The notes beneath the pieces are model-generated. The model was not told the DNA's origin and did no database searches. It saw only the letters and a list, made by a program, of their open reading frames with translations. The position numbers were made by a program, and so were the translations under genes. This document shows, one piece after another, positions 30,068 through 64,000 of a DNA stretch of 64,000 nucleotides (position 1 is the first letter of the stretch; each line of letters opens with the position of its first letter). The DNA is from Halanaerobium saccharolyticum subsp. saccharolyticum DSM 6643 (GTDB lineage: Bacteria; Bacillota; Halanaerobiia; Halanaerobiales; Halanaerobiaceae): contig NZ_CAUI01000019.1 of assembly GCF_000350165.1 (NCBI RefSeq), forward strand, positions 124,001-188,000. The letters run 5' to 3'.

Positions 30068-30079
30068 TAATGTAAGAAT

Positions 30080-30205
30080 AGTCGCACAACTCCGAGCGCT
30101 TTTAAGCTAAGACTTGCATGTTAAGCTTACTGCGCCGATAGGGTTTAAAAGGAAACTTTTGAGCCTCCCGGATGGAAAGGAGTGATCGATATGGATTGCA
30201 TTATG
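30080..30205 (+). ncRNA. Moco-family (molybdenum/tungsten cofactor) riboswitch
   Basis: The leader carries the hallmark 3' core of Moco RNAs: a GCCTCCCG run followed by ATGGAAAGG (30163-30180) and a purine-rich tail running into ATATGG. Just before it is a short hairpin with a GAAA tetraloop (AAAAG-GAAA-CTTTT, about 30147-30160), also part of the class. A strong intrinsic terminator follows, and the next gene is a tungstate-binding protein. The aptamer probably senses reduced molybdenum or tungsten cofactor and switches transporter synthesis. I judged this by eye against remembered examples, not by covariance model. Confidence 0.82.
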
Positions 30206-30329: not shown

Positions 30330-31157
30330 ATGTCAATAAAGAAGATTATTTTTTCATTACTTATTTTTATGTTGATCTTTAGTTCAGCTGCGGCTGCTCA
30401 AGAGATATTAACAATGGCAACTACAACCAGTACTGAGAATTCTGGGCTTTTAGCTGAATTGATTCCACCTTTTGAAGAAAAGTTTAATGTGCGGGTAGAT
30501 GTTGTAGCCGTAGGAACTGGAGCTGCAATTGAACTGGGACGGAATGGTGATGCTGATATAATTTTTGTTCATGCCCGGGAAGCTGAAGATGAATTTGTGG
30601 CAAATAGCTATGGGGTAAATAGAAGAGATGTAATGTATAATGACTTTGTTATTTTAGGACCAACTTCTGATCCAGCCGGGCTTAGGGATACTGAAAATGC
30701 TGCAGAGGCACTAGAAAAAATAGCTGCATCGAAAACAGAATTTGTATCGCGTGGTGATAATTCTGGTACCCATAAGAAAGAATTATCTCTTTGGGATAGT
30801 GCTGGAATTAAGCCCGATGGCAGCTGGTATTTAGAAAGTGGTCAGGGTATGGGGCCAAGTATAAATATGGCAGATGAGCGCCAGGCATACATTTTAGCTG
30901 ATCGAGGAACTTTCTTAGCTTATAGTGGTGATATAGAATTGGAGATATTAAATAGTGGAGATCCTGCTTTATTTAACCCTTATGGGATTATTCCAATTAA
31001 TCCAGCCTATCATACTCATGTTAATTATCAGATGGCAATGGCTTTTACAGGCTATGTAACTTCTCAACAGGGTCAAAATTTAATAAATAATTATATGAGA
31101 TACGGAAAACAACTATTTTATCCGTCTGCAATTGAAGAAGATAATCTGGTAGATTAA
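30330..31157 (+). CDS. tupA: TupA tungstate ABC transporter binding protein
   Basis: A 275-residue secreted binding protein. Residues 1-23 form a signal peptide (ending AAAA/QE) without lipobox. The mature start LTMATTTSTENSGLLAELIP, the FVHAREAEDEFVANS segment and the SRGDNSGTHKKEL loop match TupA/WtpA-like tungstate receptors; the TTTST loop binds the oxyanion. Tungstate rather than molybdate is typical for TupA. It heads tupABC behind a Moco-type riboswitch, indicating supply of tungsten for cofactor-containing oxidoreductases. Confidence 0.93.
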   Translation: MSIKKIIFSLLIFMLIFSSAAAAQEILTMATTTSTENSGLLAELIPPFEEKFNVRVDVVAVGTGAAIELGRNGDADIIFVHAREAEDEFVANSYGVNRRDVMYNDFVILGPTSDPAGLRDTENAAEALEKIAASKTEFVSRGDNSGTHKKELSLWDSAGIKPDGSWYLESGQGMGPSINMADERQAYILADRGTFLAYSGDIELEILNSGDPALFNPYGIIPINPAYHTHVNYQMAMAFTGYVTSQQGQNLINNYMRYGKQLFYPSAIEEDNLVD

Positions 31158-31180
31158 GCTTATATTTAATAGATAAGAAT

Positions 31181-31217
31181 GGCTGGCTGTAGGATTAATT
31201 AGTCTCTACAGCTGGCT
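31181..31217 (+). terminator. Intercistronic hairpin between tupA and tupB
   Basis: GGCTGGCTGTAG (31181-31192) and CTACAGCTGGCT (31206-31217) pair over 12 positions with three G-U pairs. There is no long T-run, so it likely stabilises tupA mRNA or causes partial termination. Confidence 0.65.
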
Positions 31218-31247
31218 CTTTAAAATTTGTTTGACAGGAGGCAAAAA

Positions 31248-31952
31248 GTGGGCTATTATGCTGATGCAATATATAGAGCTTTAAAACTAATTATAACTAT
31301 AGATTCTGAAGTACTCAATGTAGTAACAACTTCTCTTAAAATTTCTATTTCTTCAACCTTAATTGCTTCAATTATTTCTGTTCCACTGGCCATCTTAATT
31401 GCTAGAAAGAAATTCAAAAGCAAAAAATTTGTAAATATTATTTTGAACACTCTCTTAAGTTTACCTACAGTTGTAGTTGGTATTTTTGTTTATTCTTTAA
31501 TTTCTCGTCGTGGTGTTCTGGGAGAATTAGAACTTTTATTTACTCCGATTGGTATAATCGTAGGACAGGTAATTTTAATTACCCCCCTTATAACTGCTTT
31601 AATTAGGAATGTTATTTTTTCTCTAGATGAAAAATTATATAAAACAGCATTATCAATGGGAGCAAGCCGCAGTCAAAAATTTAAACTTTTGATTTTAGAA
31701 GCTCGATATGGAATCATAGGAGCCATAATTGCTGGTTTTGGTAGAGTATTGGGCGAAATTGGAGTCTCTATGATGCTCGGGGGAAATATTAAGGGAGTAA
31801 CCAGAACAATAACTACTGCCATGTCGTTGGAGACAAATAAAGGTCGTTTTGCTTTTGCCTTGGCATTAGGAATAATACTTTTAACATTATCTTTTTTAAT
31901 AAATTTTCTAACATATTTTCTGCAGGAGGGAAAAGATTATGCAAGAAGATAA
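31248..31952 (+). CDS. tupB: TupB tungstate ABC transporter permease
   Basis: A 234-residue permease with five to six membrane helices and the ModB-like cytoplasmic loop (YKTALSMGASRSQKFKLLILEAR near 135-160), followed by GFGRVLGEIGVSMMLGGNI. I choose the GTG at 31248 because AGGAGG at 31235-31240 is seven bases before it; the TTG at 31227 lies upstream of that site. It ends inside tupC (14-base overlap). Confidence 0.93.
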   Translation: MGYYADAIYRALKLIITIDSEVLNVVTTSLKISISSTLIASIISVPLAILIARKKFKSKKFVNIILNTLLSLPTVVVGIFVYSLISRRGVLGELELLFTPIGIIVGQVILITPLITALIRNVIFSLDEKLYKTALSMGASRSQKFKLLILEARYGIIGAIIAGFGRVLGEIGVSMMLGGNIKGVTRTITTAMSLETNKGRFAFALALGIILLTLSFLINFLTYFLQEGKDYARR

Positions 31953-32667
31953 AATTATTGAGGTTAAAAATATTAAGAAAATCTGCAGAGAAAAGAAAAT
32001 CCTGGATATTGATAATTTTGTAGTTTTAAAAAATAAATTTAATTTTATTGTAGGGGGTAATGGCAGCGGGAAAACAAGTCTATTAAATATTTTAAGTTTA
32101 GTTGATCAGGATTATAAGGGTCAACTATATTATAAAGGTAAAAAAATTGATAAAACTGCTGAAAATTTAGAGTTAAGAAGGAAGTTTTCCGTTATTTGGC
32201 AAGATCCATACTTGTATCGGGGTGATGTTTTTTATAATATTGCTCTGCCATTAAAGCTGCGTAATTATAAGTCGAAGATAATAGAAAACAAAGTGAAAGA
32301 AATATCTGAAAAAATTGAAATCAAAAAACTGTTAAATCAATCAGCATTTACTCTTTCAGGTGGGGAAAAGCAGAAAGTCTCTATTGCGAGAGCTTTAATT
32401 ACTGAACCTGAAATTTTATTTGTAGATGAAGCTACAACAAATTTGGATGAAGAAAGTATCCAATTTTTTAATTCTCATTTTGCTGATCTAGTAACAGATG
32501 AAATGACAGTTGTGATGGTCAGCCATGATAGAAGACAGATTAAACTTCTAGCTGACTATATAACTTTACTTCATAAAGGAAAAGTAAAAATTAGCAGAGA
32601 AATTAATGAGTTCAAATTTCAGCTTTTTGGCGAAGGGATTGAAACCCCTATTGCTGAATTAGTATAG
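31939..32667 (+). CDS. tupC: TupC tungstate ABC transporter ATPase
   Basis: A 242-residue ABC ATPase with Walker A GGNGSGKTS near 36-44, the signature LSGGEKQKVSIARAL near 140, Walker B EILFVDEATTNLDEES and the switch histidine in VMVSHDRRQ. It energises TupAB. The sequence lacks the C-terminal TOBE/molbindin extension found in ModC proteins. It is the last gene of the tup operon. Confidence 0.94.
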   Translation: MQEDKIIEVKNIKKICREKKILDIDNFVVLKNKFNFIVGGNGSGKTSLLNILSLVDQDYKGQLYYKGKKIDKTAENLELRRKFSVIWQDPYLYRGDVFYNIALPLKLRNYKSKIIENKVKEISEKIEIKKLLNQSAFTLSGGEKQKVSIARALITEPEILFVDEATTNLDEESIQFFNSHFADLVTDEMTVVMVSHDRRQIKLLADYITLLHKGKVKISREINEFKFQLFGEGIETPIAELV

Positions 32668-57382: not shown

Positions 57383-58126
57383 ATGGAAACTCTTTTATAT
57401 AGTTTTTTTGCAGGGACATCAACAATAATTGGCGTTTTTGTTTTAATGGTTTTTGGAGAACCTGGCAATAAAACGCTTGCTTCACTGCTGGGTTTTGCAG
57501 CTGGAATTATGCTTGCTATTTCTGTTTTTGAGTTGATGCCAGAGGCTTTAATTTTAGGTTCAATGACTATTACAATAATTGGATTTTTACTTGGTGCTTT
57601 AATGATGTGGAGTTTAGATAAGGTGGTACCACATTCACATTTATCATCTGCTGATCATTTGGATGTTGAAAATCCAGAAAAAATTCATGTTGACAATCCA
57701 ATTTTAAGGACTGGTTATTTAATTTTATTTGGGATTGCGCTGCATAATTTACCAGAAGGACTGGCAATTGGCGCTGGTTTTGAGTCAAGCCCAGAAGTAG
57801 GGGTTTTGATTGCAGTTGCAATCGCATTTCATAATATACCGGAGGGCCTTGCTATTGCTGGACCGCTTAAGGCTGGAGGAATTGATAATTTGAGACTGCT
57901 GATATTCACTTTAATTGCAGGATTGATGACTCCACTTGGTACTTTAATTGGACTAGCAATCTTTAATATTTCTGCAAGTTTAGTTGGAGGGTCACTTGCT
58001 TTTGCAGCCGGTGCAATGGTTTACATTGTTAATGATGAATTAGTTCCTCAGTCCAATAATATGCACAGTCACTTTGCTAATGCTGGTATAATGGCCGGTC
58101 TATTAATTGGTTTTGGAATATTATAG
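57383..58126 (+). CDS. ZIP-family divalent metal transporter (1 of 3)
   Basis: A 247-residue protein with eight predicted helices and the ZIP metal-binding helices HNLPEGLAIGAGFESS (helix IV) and HNIPEGLAIAGPL (helix V). The loop between helices III and IV (about 75-110) is His- and Asp-containing (PHSHLSSADHLD). ZIP proteins import Zn2+, Fe2+, Mn2+ or similar into the cytosol. It is one of three ZIP paralogues within 4 kb. Confidence 0.93.
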   Translation: METLLYSFFAGTSTIIGVFVLMVFGEPGNKTLASLLGFAAGIMLAISVFELMPEALILGSMTITIIGFLLGALMMWSLDKVVPHSHLSSADHLDVENPEKIHVDNPILRTGYLILFGIALHNLPEGLAIGAGFESSPEVGVLIAVAIAFHNIPEGLAIAGPLKAGGIDNLRLLIFTLIAGLMTPLGTLIGLAIFNISASLVGGSLAFAAGAMVYIVNDELVPQSNNMHSHFANAGIMAGLLIGFGIL

Positions 58127-59412: not shown

Positions 59413-59498
59413 TATAATTAATAACTACTTAAAATAAAAAACGGGAAGATTATATAATTTCGGATAAATAAAAGATTTATATAGAAGGGAGAGATTTG

Positions 59499-60308
59499 AT
59501 GGATCCGGTAGTCTTTGCATTTTTGTTGACTCTTTTTGCAGGTTTAGCAACAGGTATTGGTAGTATTTTAGCTTTTTTTAGTAAAACAAGAAACTCTTCT
59601 TTTTTATCTATTTCTCTAGGCTTTTCTGCAGGTGTTATGATCTATGTTTCATTTGTAGAAATATTTTTTAAAGCTGAAGAAGCTTTAATTTCATATTATG
59701 GTCAGGGAAAAGGCCAGTGGATAACAGTACTTTCGTTTTTTGTAGGAATTTTAATTATTGCTCTAATTGATAGATTAGTACCTGAATATGAAAATCCACA
59801 TGAACCTCGTTCTGACCGAGATTTGTCTCATTTAAAAGCTGATGATTTTGAAGATAATGAGGAGTTGGAAAGAATGGGAGTTTTTTCAGCTTTGGCAATT
59901 GCTATTCATAATTTTCCTGAAGGACTGGCTACTTTTGCAGCAGCTTTAAGTGATCCAGCTTTAGGAATTTCTATTGCAATTGCGATTGCTCTTCATAATA
60001 TTCCGGAAGGTATTTCTGTATCTGTTCCTATTTATTATTCTACAGGGAGTAAAAAGAAAGCCTTATTTTATTCATTTATTTCTGGTTTAGCAGAGCCTTT
60101 TGGTGCTTTGATAGGTTATTTTGTTCTGCGATCACTCTTTAATGATATGGTTTTTGGATTTTTATTTGGTACAGTAGCAGGGATTATGGTTTACATTTCT
60201 ATTGACGAATTATTACCGACATCGAGAAAATATGGTAAAGAACATCAGGAAATCTATGGTTTTATAGCTGGAATGGGAGTAATGGCAGTTAGTTTGCTTT
60301 TATTCTAG
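59499..60308 (+). CDS. ZIP-family divalent metal transporter (2 of 3)
   Basis: A 269-residue ZupT-like transporter. The metal helices read [16 protein letters not shown] (helix IV) and [18 protein letters not shown] (helix V), and [14 protein letters not shown] follows. The N-terminal [20 protein letters not shown] is typical of ZupT. The variable loop (about 85-120) is acidic with scattered His. The ATG at 59499 follows AAGGGAGAG. Of the three paralogues it is closest in appearance to E. coli ZupT. Confidence 0.94.
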
Positions 60309-60387
60309 AACTTTTGCATTTTAATTGCACAAAATGATTAAGATATAATAATTTATTAAAGATAAATAAAAAATGGAGATGTTAATA

Positions 60388-61203
60388 ATGGTTATTGATT
60401 TTTTAAGTAATTTATCACCTATTATGCAGGCACTGCTGGCTACATTATTCACCTGGCTTGTAACTGCTCTGGGAGCTGGAATTGTTTTCTTTTTTAATGA
60501 TGTTGATCGAAGACTTCTTGATAGTATGCTTGGCTTTGCTGCTGGAGTAATGATAGCAGCCAGTTTTTGGTCTTTGCTGGCCCCGGCAATAGAAATTTCC
60601 GAAAACCTGGGAGTACCAGGCTGGATTCCAGCTGTAATTGGATTTTTAATGGGGGGTATATTTTTACGGTTTGTTGATATGGTTTTGCCGCACTTACACC
60701 CTGCTTTAGCCAATAGTGAACCTGAAGGGATTAAAACTAAATGGCAGCGGAGTGTTCTACTGGTATTAGCAGTTACTCTGCATAATTTTCCAGAAGGTTT
60801 AGCAGTTGGAGTGGCTTTTGGTGCAGCAGCAGTTAATATTTCTTCTGCTTCTATTGCTGGAGCTGTCGCCCTGGCATTAGGTATTGGATTACAGAACTTT
60901 CCTGAAGGTGCAGCAGTTTCTATTCCGCTAAAAAGAGAAGGTCTCTCTTCCAGGAAGAGTTTTGCTTATGGACAAATGTCAGGTGTCGTTGAACCAATTG
61001 CTGGAGTTATGGGAGCTGCAGGAGTTTATTATATGAGACCAATTTTACCATATGCTTTGGCTTTTGCTGCAGGTGCAATGATTTTTGTTGTGGGAGAAGA
61101 GTTAATCCCCGAAGCCAACTCAGAAGGGAACAGTCATCTTGCTACAACAGGCTTGATGCTCGGGTTTGCAGTGATGATGTTTTTAGATGTTTCTTTAGGT
61201 TGA
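60388..61203 (+). CDS. ZIP-family divalent metal transporter (3 of 3)
   Basis: A 271-residue ZIP protein of the GufA-like branch. Helix IV has [18 protein letters not shown]; the helix V site reads [18 protein letters not shown], with Gln-Asn in place of the usual His-Asn. Early features are [20 protein letters not shown]. The ATG at 60388 is nine bases from GGAG; the ATG at 60373 lies before that site. It is preceded by a TATAAT-like element near 60343. Confidence 0.92.
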
Positions 61204-61218
61204 TTGAAAATTAATTTC

Positions 61219-61247
61219 TTGACTTATTGAAATGATTAAGTTATAAT
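61219..61247 (+). promoter_or_regulatory. trp operon promoter
   Basis: TTGACT (61219-61224), 17 bases and TATAAT (61242-61247) put the transcript start near 61254, about 290 bases before trpE. Confidence 0.88.
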
Positions 61248-61263
61248 TAAAAAAATTAGAAAC

Positions 61264-61312
61264 AAGAAGAGCCTAGATTAGTAGAGCAGAGTTAGAGATG
61301 AGATTAGCAGAG
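61264..61312 (+). promoter_or_regulatory. TRAP-like (G/U)AG repeat region in the trp leader
   Basis: Triplets GAG or TAG begin at 61269, 61274, 61279, 61284, 61289, 61295, 61300, 61305 and 61310, with a weaker AAG at 61264. The spacing is five bases except one six-base step. Nine strong repeats at this periodicity are the signature of the eleven-fold trp RNA-binding attenuation protein. It lies at the 5' end of the leader and just before a terminator. Confidence 0.78.
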
Positions 61313-61331
61313 CCAATATTGTAACTAATGG

Positions 61332-61371
61332 GCCAGGTTTATATCTATTTATATATAAATGTGGCTTTTTT
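61332..61371 (+). terminator. trp leader terminator 1
   Basis: GCCA and TTTATAT (61332-61344) pair with ATATAAA and TGGC (61353-61365) around a small internal mismatch, followed by six T. It directly follows the repeat region, so TRAP binding could favour it. Confidence 0.8.
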
Positions 61372-61464
61372 GTTTTAGCAAAACAGTGATTGTATTGATT
61401 TTTTCAATTCACGACTAAAACAGAATTTTGGTATTTAAAATTATATTTTAAAATCTCTAATAAC

Positions 61465-61501
61465 AACGGTCAGGCTTTTAACCAAGCCCTGGCCGTTTTT
61501 T
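61465..61501 (+). terminator. trp leader terminator 2
   Basis: AACGGTCAGG-CTT (61465-61477) pairs with AAG-CCCTGGCCGTT (61484-61497) with one bulged C, then six T. It is a second barrier 45 bases before trpE. No T-box motif is visible near it. Confidence 0.9.
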
Positions 61502-61546
61502 GATTTCAGAGTAGAAATAATATTATATTTTACGAGGAGGAGAGAG

Positions 61547-63055
61547 ATGCAAAATAAAGCTAAATTTTTAGAATTAACAGCAGAATACAATCTGATTCCA
61601 ATTTATGATGAATTTATTGCAGACATTGAGACACCAATTTCCTTATATAAAAAACTAGCTTTAACTAAAGATTATACTTATCTTTTAGAGAGCTCGGAAA
61701 ATGACCGCTATTCTTTTATCGGCCTTGAACCGGCAGCAGTTCTTAAAAATCATGATGATCATCTAGAAGTAATTAGAGATGGAAAAACCGAGAAACTGCT
61801 TGGACAGGAGATAGCAGAGTATCTTCAGCAGCAGTTGGCTGAACTTAAAGTTTATGAAAATGAAAAACTGCCTCCATTTTCAGGCGGTTTTGTTGGTTAT
61901 TTTAATTATGAGATGATTGAAAAATGGGAAGATATTTATCACCTTGAAGTTGGAAAGGGGTTAAAGAAAGATAATACTCCTTTAAGTTTGCTGGTAATGA
62001 GTAAGGTTATTATTGCTTATGATCATCTTCATAATACTGTTAAAATCATCAATAATATTGAAATAGATGAAAACTTAAGACCTGAGGAAAAAGCAGAAAT
62101 GTATCTTGATGCTAAAGCTGAAATTGCTAAAATTAAAGCTGAGATTGAAAACAATAATTCAAAATTAAGGCCAGAAAAAGTTAAGTCGGATACAAAAGCG
62201 AATAGAAAATTGAAGTCCAATACTACAAAAAGAGAATATAAAAAGATGGTGGAAAAGGCTAAAAATCATATTAAAGCAGGAGATATTTTTCAGATTGTAT
62301 TATCCCAAAAATTTTCAATAGAAAATGATCTGCCACCTTTTAAAATTTATCGGGCTTTAAGATCAGTAAATCCTTCACCCTATTCTTTTTATCTTAATTT
62401 TCCTGAGATTAAAATCATTGGCTCTTCACCGGAGGTATTGGTTAGAGTTAGAGATCAGAGAGTAATGACTCGACCGCTGGCAGGGACCAGACCCAGAGGC
62501 AAAGACATTAAAGAGGATCAAAAATTAAAAAAAGATCTTTTAAATGATGAAAAAGAAAAGGCAGAACATACAATGCTTTTAGATTTAGGCCGTAATGATT
62601 TAAGTCGAATTGCAGCTCCTGGAAGTGTTGAAGTAACAGAGTTAATGGAAGTTGAATTTTATTCAAAGGTAATGCATATTGTTTCTCAGGTGGAAGCTGA
62701 TCTTAAGCAAGGTTTGGACAGTCTTGATGTTTTAAAGGCAGTTTTTCCAGCCGGCACGGTTTCTGGTGCTCCAAAAATTAAGGCAATTGAGCTGATTGAT
62801 GGATTTGAAAAAGAAGCGCGGGGTGTTTATGCAGGAACGGTAGCCTATTTAAGCTTCAATGGTAATTTAGACAGCTGTATTACAATTAGAACATTTTCTT
62901 TAGTTGAAGGGAGGCTTAACCTGCAGGTTGGTGCTGGAATTGTTGCTGATTCTGATCCAGTCAAAGAATATGAGGAGACACTTAATAAAGGGCAGGCTTT
63001 GTTTGATGCTCTAGAAGTGGTTAGAAAGGATGGTATTCGTGATTTTAGTAATTGA
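61547..63055 (+). CDS. trpE: Anthranilate synthase component I
   Basis: A 502-residue enzyme that makes anthranilate from chorismate with ammonia from TrpG. The N-terminal domain has the tryptophan feedback motif LLES near residue 45. The chorismate-binding domain has KAGDIFQIVLSQKF, SSPEVLVRVRD, TRPLAGTRPRGKD, and TVSGAPKIKAIELID followed by QVGAGIVADSDPVKEYEET. It starts with ATG after GAGGAGGAGAGAG and overlaps trpG. Confidence 0.96.
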   Translation: MQNKAKFLELTAEYNLIPIYDEFIADIETPISLYKKLALTKDYTYLLESSENDRYSFIGLEPAAVLKNHDDHLEVIRDGKTEKLLGQEIAEYLQQQLAELKVYENEKLPPFSGGFVGYFNYEMIEKWEDIYHLEVGKGLKKDNTPLSLLVMSKVIIAYDHLHNTVKIINNIEIDENLRPEEKAEMYLDAKAEIAKIKAEIENNNSKLRPEKVKSDTKANRKLKSNTTKREYKKMVEKAKNHIKAGDIFQIVLSQKFSIENDLPPFKIYRALRSVNPSPYSFYLNFPEIKIIGSSPEVLVRVRDQRVMTRPLAGTRPRGKDIKEDQKLKKDLLNDEKEKAEHTMLLDLGRNDLSRIAAPGSVEVTELMEVEFYSKVMHIVSQVEADLKQGLDSLDVLKAVFPAGTVSGAPKIKAIELIDGFEKEARGVYAGTVAYLSFNGNLDSCITIRTFSLVEGRLNLQVGAGIVADSDPVKEYEETLNKGQALFDALEVVRKDGIRDFSN

Positions 63056-63602
63056 TAATTATGATTCTTTTACCTACAACTTAGTCCATCTGCTGGAGGA
63101 ATTTGATCAAGTTAAGGTTATGCGTAATGATAAGTTGAGTCTTGGAGATGCTGCAATTATGGCTCCGGATAAAATTATTATTTCGCCTGGACCTGGTCGG
63201 CCCGATGATGCAGGAATTTCTAAAGGGCTAATTAGGTATTTTAAGGGTGAAATTGATATTTTAGGCGTTTGTCTCGGCCATCAGTGTATTGGAGAAGTTT
63301 TTAGTTCAGAGGTGATTGAGGCAGATAGAATTATACATGGCAAGACTTCAGCTATTAAAAAAACTAAAGCTGACAAACTATTTGCAGGGATTAAAGATGG
63401 TTTTCGGGCAACCCGCTATCATTCATTGATAGTTGATCGCGAGAGCTTGAGTGATGAACTTGAGGTGCTGGCAGAAAGTGACCAAGGTGAAATCATGGCT
63501 TTAAAACACAAGGAATATCCCGTTTATGGAGTTCAATTTCATCCGGAATCAATACTGACTGAAGCAGGAAGAAAACTGATTAAGAATTTTTTAGAACTTT
63601 AA
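63039..63602 (+). CDS. trpG: Anthranilate synthase component II (glutamine amidotransferase)
   Basis: A 187-residue class I amidotransferase that supplies ammonia to TrpE. The triad is visible: nucleophile Cys in GVCLGHQCIGE, and His and Glu in QFHPESIL. The N-terminus IDNYDSFTYNLVHLL is diagnostic. I choose the GTG at 63039, eight bases after AAAGGA; the ATG at 63030 is within that site. It overlaps the end of trpE, ensuring balanced synthesis. Confidence 0.95.
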   Translation: MILVIDNYDSFTYNLVHLLEEFDQVKVMRNDKLSLGDAAIMAPDKIIISPGPGRPDDAGISKGLIRYFKGEIDILGVCLGHQCIGEVFSSEVIEADRIIHGKTSAIKKTKADKLFAGIKDGFRATRYHSLIVDRESLSDELEVLAESDQGEIMALKHKEYPVYGVQFHPESILTEAGRKLIKNFLEL

Positions 63603-63682: not shown

Positions 63683-63717
63683 TAGCTAAGATGAGTAGCA
63701 GCAATAGAGGAGGAGAG
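63683..63717 (+). promoter_or_regulatory. Possible second TRAP-type site over the trpD ribosome binding site
   Basis: Triplets TAG 63683, AAG 63688, GAG 63693, TAG 63696, TAG 63705, GAG 63710 and GAG 63715 are arranged at roughly five-base steps and overlap the GAGGAGGAGAG site of trpD. The spacing is less regular than in the leader. Confidence 0.4.
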
Positions 63718-63720
63718 AAT

Positions 63721-64000
63721 ATGTTTAACAAACATTTAGATAAAGTAGTGAGTAGAGAGGATTTAACTTTAGCAGAGATGGAAGAAGCAATGTCAATGGT
63801 GATGGAAGGTAAAACAACAGATAGTCAGCTGGCAGCATTTCTGGTTGGGCTAAGAATGAAGGGAGAAACAATAGATGAGATAACCGGAGCGGCCAGTGTG
63901 ATGAGGAATAAGGCGGCAAGAGTCAAAACTAACGCTAAAGATTTAATCGACAGTTGTGGAACTGGTGGAGATGAGAAGGGTACTTTTAATATTTCTACAA
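63721..64000 (+). CDS. trpD: Anthranilate phosphoribosyltransferase (3'-partial)
   Basis: The frame starts with ATG after GAGGAGGAGAGAAT and stays open to the end of the window (about 93 residues). It begins MFNKHLDKVVSREDLTLAEM and reaches the phosphoribosyl-pyrophosphate loop segment DSCGTGGDEKGTFNIST, which is diagnostic for TrpD. It transfers phosphoribose to anthranilate, the second step of tryptophan synthesis. The C-terminal catalytic domain is to the right of the window. Confidence 0.95.
   Translation, partial: MFNKHLDKVVSREDLTLAEMEEAMSMVMEGKTTDSQLAAFLVGLRMKGETIDEITGAASVMRNKAARVKTNAKDLIDSCGTGGDEKGTFNIST

Follow-up and report, generated by a model that had tools for sequence, protein, structure and literature searches.

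The trpE leader of a salt-loving Halanaerobium carries 11 NAG repeats of the kind bound by TRAP, followed by two terminators (T1 and T2). The arrangement is probably best explained as a tryptophan switch worked by TRAP, in which tandem attenuators would share one TRAP site. Judged from the sequence, control of the leader by TRAP is very likely and a long-range antiterminator acting on T2 is likely, while the balance tips towards T1 being under the same TRAP control as T2.

In the window species, we infer, TRAP would be unbound at low tryptophan, leaving the repeats available for pairing. They would form antiterminator 1 with the 5' arm of T1, and strand exchange would then carry them into antiterminator 2, a longer, stronger helix with the 5' arm of T2. 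With both antiterminators formed, RNA polymerase would pass T1 and T2 and transcribe trpEGD. In the presence of tryptophan the Trp-loaded TRAP ring would wrap the 11 repeats, which lie almost at the 5' end of the transcript, both antiterminators would be blocked and transcription would stop at T1, or at T2 if TRAP arrived late or T1 were leaky. We give an even chance to the relay as such, ie that a single RNA strand passes from a local to a stronger long-range antiterminator as the polymerase advances. If true, it would provide two TRAP decision points and multiply repression. To our knowledge a relay attenuator of this type has not been described for TRAP.

Features of the trpE leader

The window, ie the whole 64-kb stretch of Halanaerobium DNA that was analysed, contains a trpE leader made up of promoter, array, T1 and T2, followed by trpE, trpG and trpD. 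Among named records, the nearest TrpE is that of H. saccharolyticum, at 88% identity. The features are as follows.

61219-61247, forward strand: sigma-A type promoter, TTGACT-17-TATAAT, with 11 of 12 consensus matches; similar promoters are visible in relatives
61257-61312, forward strand: predicted TRAP-binding array of 11 NAG repeats, from a chain search; conserved in relatives
61267-61299, forward strand: shared 5' strand of the antiterminators (predicted pairing), within repeats 3-8 and including a conserved GAGCC
61324-61333, forward strand: 3' strand of antiterminator 1 (predicted)
61331-61366, forward strand: terminator/attenuator T1, -13.6 kcal/mol in the fold-based scan, then TTTTTGTTTT; conserved in most of the genus
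61453-61479, forward strand: 3' strand of antiterminator 2 (predicted)
61465-61497, forward strand: terminator/attenuator T2, AACGGTCAGGC..AAGCCCTGGCCGTT, -17.1 kcal/mol in the fold-based scan, then a T run (TTTT)
61534-61542, forward strand: trpE Shine-Dalgarno region, GAGGAGGAG
61547-63055, forward strand: trpE, anthranilate synthase component I (PF00425, 1.4e-94; PF04715, 1.5e-26)
63030-63602, forward strand: trpG, anthranilate synthase amidotransferase component (PF00117, 7.5e-55)
63691-63999, forward strand: start of trpD, which runs past the window end (PF02885, 1.3e-23)

The repeats start at 61257, 61264, 61269, 61274, 61279, 61284, 61289, 61295, 61300, 61305 and 61310, and read in order TAG, AAG, GAG, TAG, TAG, GAG, GAG, GAG, GAG, TAG and GAG. 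The spacers are 2-3 nt, the sole longer one being the first, at 4 nt. An earlier note on this DNA had counted nine triplets at 61269-61312. These are present at steps of 5-6 nt, but the full count is 11, with AAG at 61264 and TAG at 61257 added upstream. The TRAP ring of B. subtilis has the same number of subunits. The leader was rightly called promoter-proximal: a strong promoter lies directly before the array, which therefore begins no more than a few bases from the predicted 5' end.

The earlier note had staked its reading on conservation of the repeats and on the presence of an mtrB gene. Relatives retain the repeats at the same places, mostly as GAG or TAG with the fourth place often CAG, and they are conserved across the genus and the order. 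That the repeats are a chance purine-rich tract or the site of some other factor, with trp regulation proceeding by means other than TRAP, is extremely improbable. The chain is unique in its length in both window and genome: no other (G/T)AG chain on either strand of the 64 kb is longer than four repeats, and a five-repeat pattern occurs once genome-wide, at the trp leader (reversed control, 0). The presence of mtrB in the genome and of the same motif at other Trp genes, both described below, also tells against such an origin.

The two terminators reported after the repeats were both found by a fold-based scan, which was used in place of a simple terminator scan that missed them. Conservation of T2 extends through the genus and to two genera of another family. 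Other types of leader were considered and rejected, in agreement with the earlier note. Neither a T-box nor any other Rfam match was found in the trpE leader, and none of the 13 T-boxes of the genome lies there. A Trp leader peptide was dismissed because a putative ORF of 19 codons that begins within T1, at 61360, contains just one Trp codon, and its start is not conserved in all relatives.

TRAP and anti-TRAP

The second point is borne out by a single mtrB in the genome of the window (E = 1.5e-37), in a 79-aa frame at 1471-1710 of L001. The closest solved structures to its product are TRAP/MtrB chains. The residues predicted to contact RNA and tryptophan are conserved. In the numbering of the B. 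subtilis TRAP reference sequence, the equivalents of G23, T25, T30, K37, D39, Q47, T49 and K56 are invariant in 30 members of the order, and that of R58 is kept in 29 of the 30. These contact residues, the conserved repeats and the recurrence of the motif at other Trp genes all uphold the TRAP-type attenuation that had been proposed. On one side of mtrB in this genome is a dnaE-like gene, and on the other are a 58-aa ORF, pfkA and pyk(-like); the mtrB of Bacillus adjoins folE. A search of this genome for a stand-alone anti-TRAP gene returned none. One match to anti-TRAP (RtpA) was rejected, as it was a 379-aa DnaJ-type frame in which the matching parts are DnaJ zinc fingers.

Within the order mtrB was detected in 32 of 38 genomes, and the five genomes of one family, which are without it, also gave no trpE match. 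It lies directly upstream of the trp leader in G028 and G029. The gene after it in G024 and G025 is trpB, whose start carries TRAP-type repeats. Across the phylum mtrB is common, also beyond the Bacilli, being present in 111 of 199 genomes sampled. The surprise which the earlier note implied at finding TRAP outside Bacillus is therefore misplaced. Its suspicion that the mechanism may differ from the textbook one is right to the extent that a second terminator seems to take part. A TRAP leader outside Bacillus is itself ordinary; what is special is the tandem terminators.

Predicted antiterminator pairing

The antiterminator that the first reading of the sequence had missed can be drawn, since the 5' arms of both T1 and T2 are able to pair with repeats 3-8. 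In predicted antiterminator 1, ACTAAT (61324-61329) pairs with ATTAGT (61277-61282) and GGGC (61330-61333) with GCCT (61271-61274). In predicted antiterminator 2, ATCTCTAAT (61453-61461) pairs with GTTAGAGAT (61291-61299), AGGCTTTT (61472-61479) with AAGAGCCT (61267-61274), GGTC (61468-61471) with GATT (61276-61279), and AC with GT (the last three pairings span 61466-61479 and 61267-61282). The complementarity is conserved, and 21 of 23 leaders have GAGCC or TAGCC in the array.

The specificity of the pairing was assessed by swapping partners between species rather than by a formal base-pair count, because the register of the helix shifts from one species to another. Each array matches its own T2 arm. 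The array/T2-arm duplexes have a mean of -24.5 kcal/mol, compared to -19.4 after swapping, and none of 5000 permutations reached -24.5. A set of 13 leaders with fewer near-duplicates gave the same result, and 11 close leaders gave p = 0.001, all such p values being optimistic because the species are related. The mean z of the T2 duplexes was -2.1 against 42 other terminator arms, a background enlarged from a first set of 8 that was too small. In G017 the pairing persists, at -23.4, across about 330 nt between array and T2. The gap between T1 and T2 in that leader (L112) is about 275 nt, compared to about 100 nt in the window, and it contains extra GC-rich palindromic stretches.

The pairing energy of the T1 arm is near background (mean z -0.13 against unrelated terminators), and its swap test was marginal (p about 0.04). 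These values, set beside the strength and specificity of the T2 pairing, would suit a leader in which TRAP controls only T2 through the long-range antiterminator, and T1 is unregulated or leaky and merely lowers transcription of the operon. T2 is moreover found in all members of the genus with a trpE leader (in G010 by eye), and G018 has kept T2 and is without T1. We nevertheless regard control of T2 alone as unlikely. In most leaders the T1 arm retains a GGGC or AGGCT that can pair with the array's GAGCC, blocking the array turns on a predicted T1 in three species (see below), and a strong unregulated terminator before trpE would be costly.

Two terminators are present in 10 of the 11 Halanaerobium genomes that have a trpE leader (T2 of G010 being identified by eye), and again in G002-G004, G030 (T1 by eye) and G007. 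Beyond Halanaerobium they occur in three or more lineages of the order. In G002, G003 and G004, which belong to another family, T1 AACCAGGCT and T2 CCAGGGTTC can both pair with GAGCCCAGGTTAG, which argues against the tandem design being an accident of one genus. Against control of both terminators from one array, the preferred reading, stand G018, which has T2 alone, and the f4 g12 and g13 leaders, which have T2 without a clear T1.

Predicted folding

With the whole terminator made, the equilibrium fold of the window leader favours the terminator with or without TRAP (T1 0.98/0.98, T2 0.86/0.88), and a switch would therefore have to be kinetic. In a global fold of the leader up to T1, T1 likewise forms even when TRAP is left out. 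For this reason equilibrium folding alone speaks neither for nor against a switch, and folds of leader prefixes and Bacillus controls were added. The switch in Bacillus trp leaders is established by experiment, and in two of the three used as controls the terminator was similarly favoured regardless of TRAP. Before the 3' arm is made, the mean pairing to the array in the window is 0.45 for the T1 arm and 0.84 for the T2 arm, compared to 0.30-0.32 in the Bacillus controls; the prediction is thus at least as good as for a proven system. Blocking the array raised predicted T1 from 0.00-0.06 to 0.97-0.98 in G015, G016 and G017.

Folding also bears on whether attenuation might be of the textbook Bacillus type, at T1 alone, with the T2 region put to some other use such as blocking the ribosome site of trpE. 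T1 does lie just after the array, as in Bacillus. In some species the trpE Shine-Dalgarno has a possible pairing partner in ATCTCTTAC, an element before T2. Blocking the array is predicted to lower Shine-Dalgarno accessibility in G012, G015 and G016. In the window, however, predicted accessibility shows no change (0.32 to 0.34), a result from a method which misses the known effect in the Bacillus controls. As the T2 arm is in addition the best match to its own array, and T2 is the sole terminator in several f4 leaders, attenuation at T1 alone is considered very unlikely.

Comparison with known systems

TRAP attenuation is a textbook case, studied almost solely in Bacillus. Among 29 trpE loci from the phylum sample, 18 have arrays of at least 7 repeats. 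These share with Halanaerobium an array and terminator upstream of trpE, but by scan 15 of the 18 have a single terminator, one has two and two have none, whereas two are the rule in Halanaerobium. Where there is one terminator, it mostly lies no more than about 25 nt from the array. The tandem T-box leaders of other Gram-positive bacteria likewise place attenuators in series before trp genes. There, every terminator is coupled to a sensor of its own that reads tRNA; in the window leader both terminators would depend on one protein site. A search confined to papers available without subscription turned up none dealing with TRAP in Halanaerobiales, with tandem TRAP terminators or with tandem T-box trp leaders; for the first two, this absence is weak evidence.

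The trpEDCFBA leader of B. subtilis (PMC3913778) resembles that of Halanaerobium in having 11 NAG repeats, mostly 2-3 nt spacers, a promoter-proximal position, a mutually exclusive antiterminator and terminator (predicted here), a conserved TRAP protein and trpP as a further target. It differs in having one weak attenuator near the array rather than two canonical terminators, of which the second, in the genus Halanaerobium, is predicted to pair with the array across 150-340 nt. B. subtilis also has translational control through a Shine-Dalgarno hairpin, and a 5' stem-loop before the array; the window leader has no such stem-loop, and no anti-TRAP was found in its genome. In Bacillus the attenuator is weak, and it has been argued that TRAP itself drives termination (PMC3913778). 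The Halanaerobium leader offers a natural version with canonical terminators, an array at the 5' end of the transcript and, apparently, two decision points, in which the setting of termination at two places by one site and the reach of the antiterminator strand could be tested.

Other candidate TRAP targets

A four-repeat search of the genome returned the trp leader and four further loci, listed here; the remaining matches look like chance.

L140: TRAP-type repeats across the start of a trpB-like gene
L147 and L148: TRAP-type repeats across the starts of two adjacent trpP genes (PF17099)
L138: TRAP-type repeats upstream of an SNF-family transporter (PF00209), close behind a promoter-like sequence

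A five-repeat search of the order gave 26 distinct loci that were read, with gene names assigned by sequence resemblance, and 20 of them precede trpE, trpD, trpB or trpP. The last is a known TRAP target in B. subtilis, according to work cited in PMC4347634. Three genomes with no trpE match (G001, G022 and G031) still have mtrB, and trpP or trpB in them carries TRAP-type repeats. In G008, G009 and G006 TRAP-like repeats span the trpE start itself, which suggests direct translational repression in those genomes; at L125, L126 and L132, also in the order, they overlap the trpE Shine-Dalgarno and start codon.

Repeats were also seen at further loci. In G021, which has no trpE match, about eight TRAP-like repeats precede genes for a 4Fe-4S protein and an aldehyde ferredoxin oxidoreductase-like protein (L183), possibly a new type of TRAP target. 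TRAP-like repeats lie between nadC-like and nadA-like genes in G011 (L176). They also precede an SNF-type transporter in G036 (L192), a genome that is 62% complete and belongs to a family where mtrB was not found.

Elsewhere in the window, a tungstate/molybdate-type ABC transporter (30330-32667) is immediately preceded by a Moco/tungsten riboswitch (RF01055, 68.1 bits) at 30078-30198. Upstream of the trp operon lie three paralogous ZIP-like metal transporters (57383-58126, 59496-60308 and 60373-61203).
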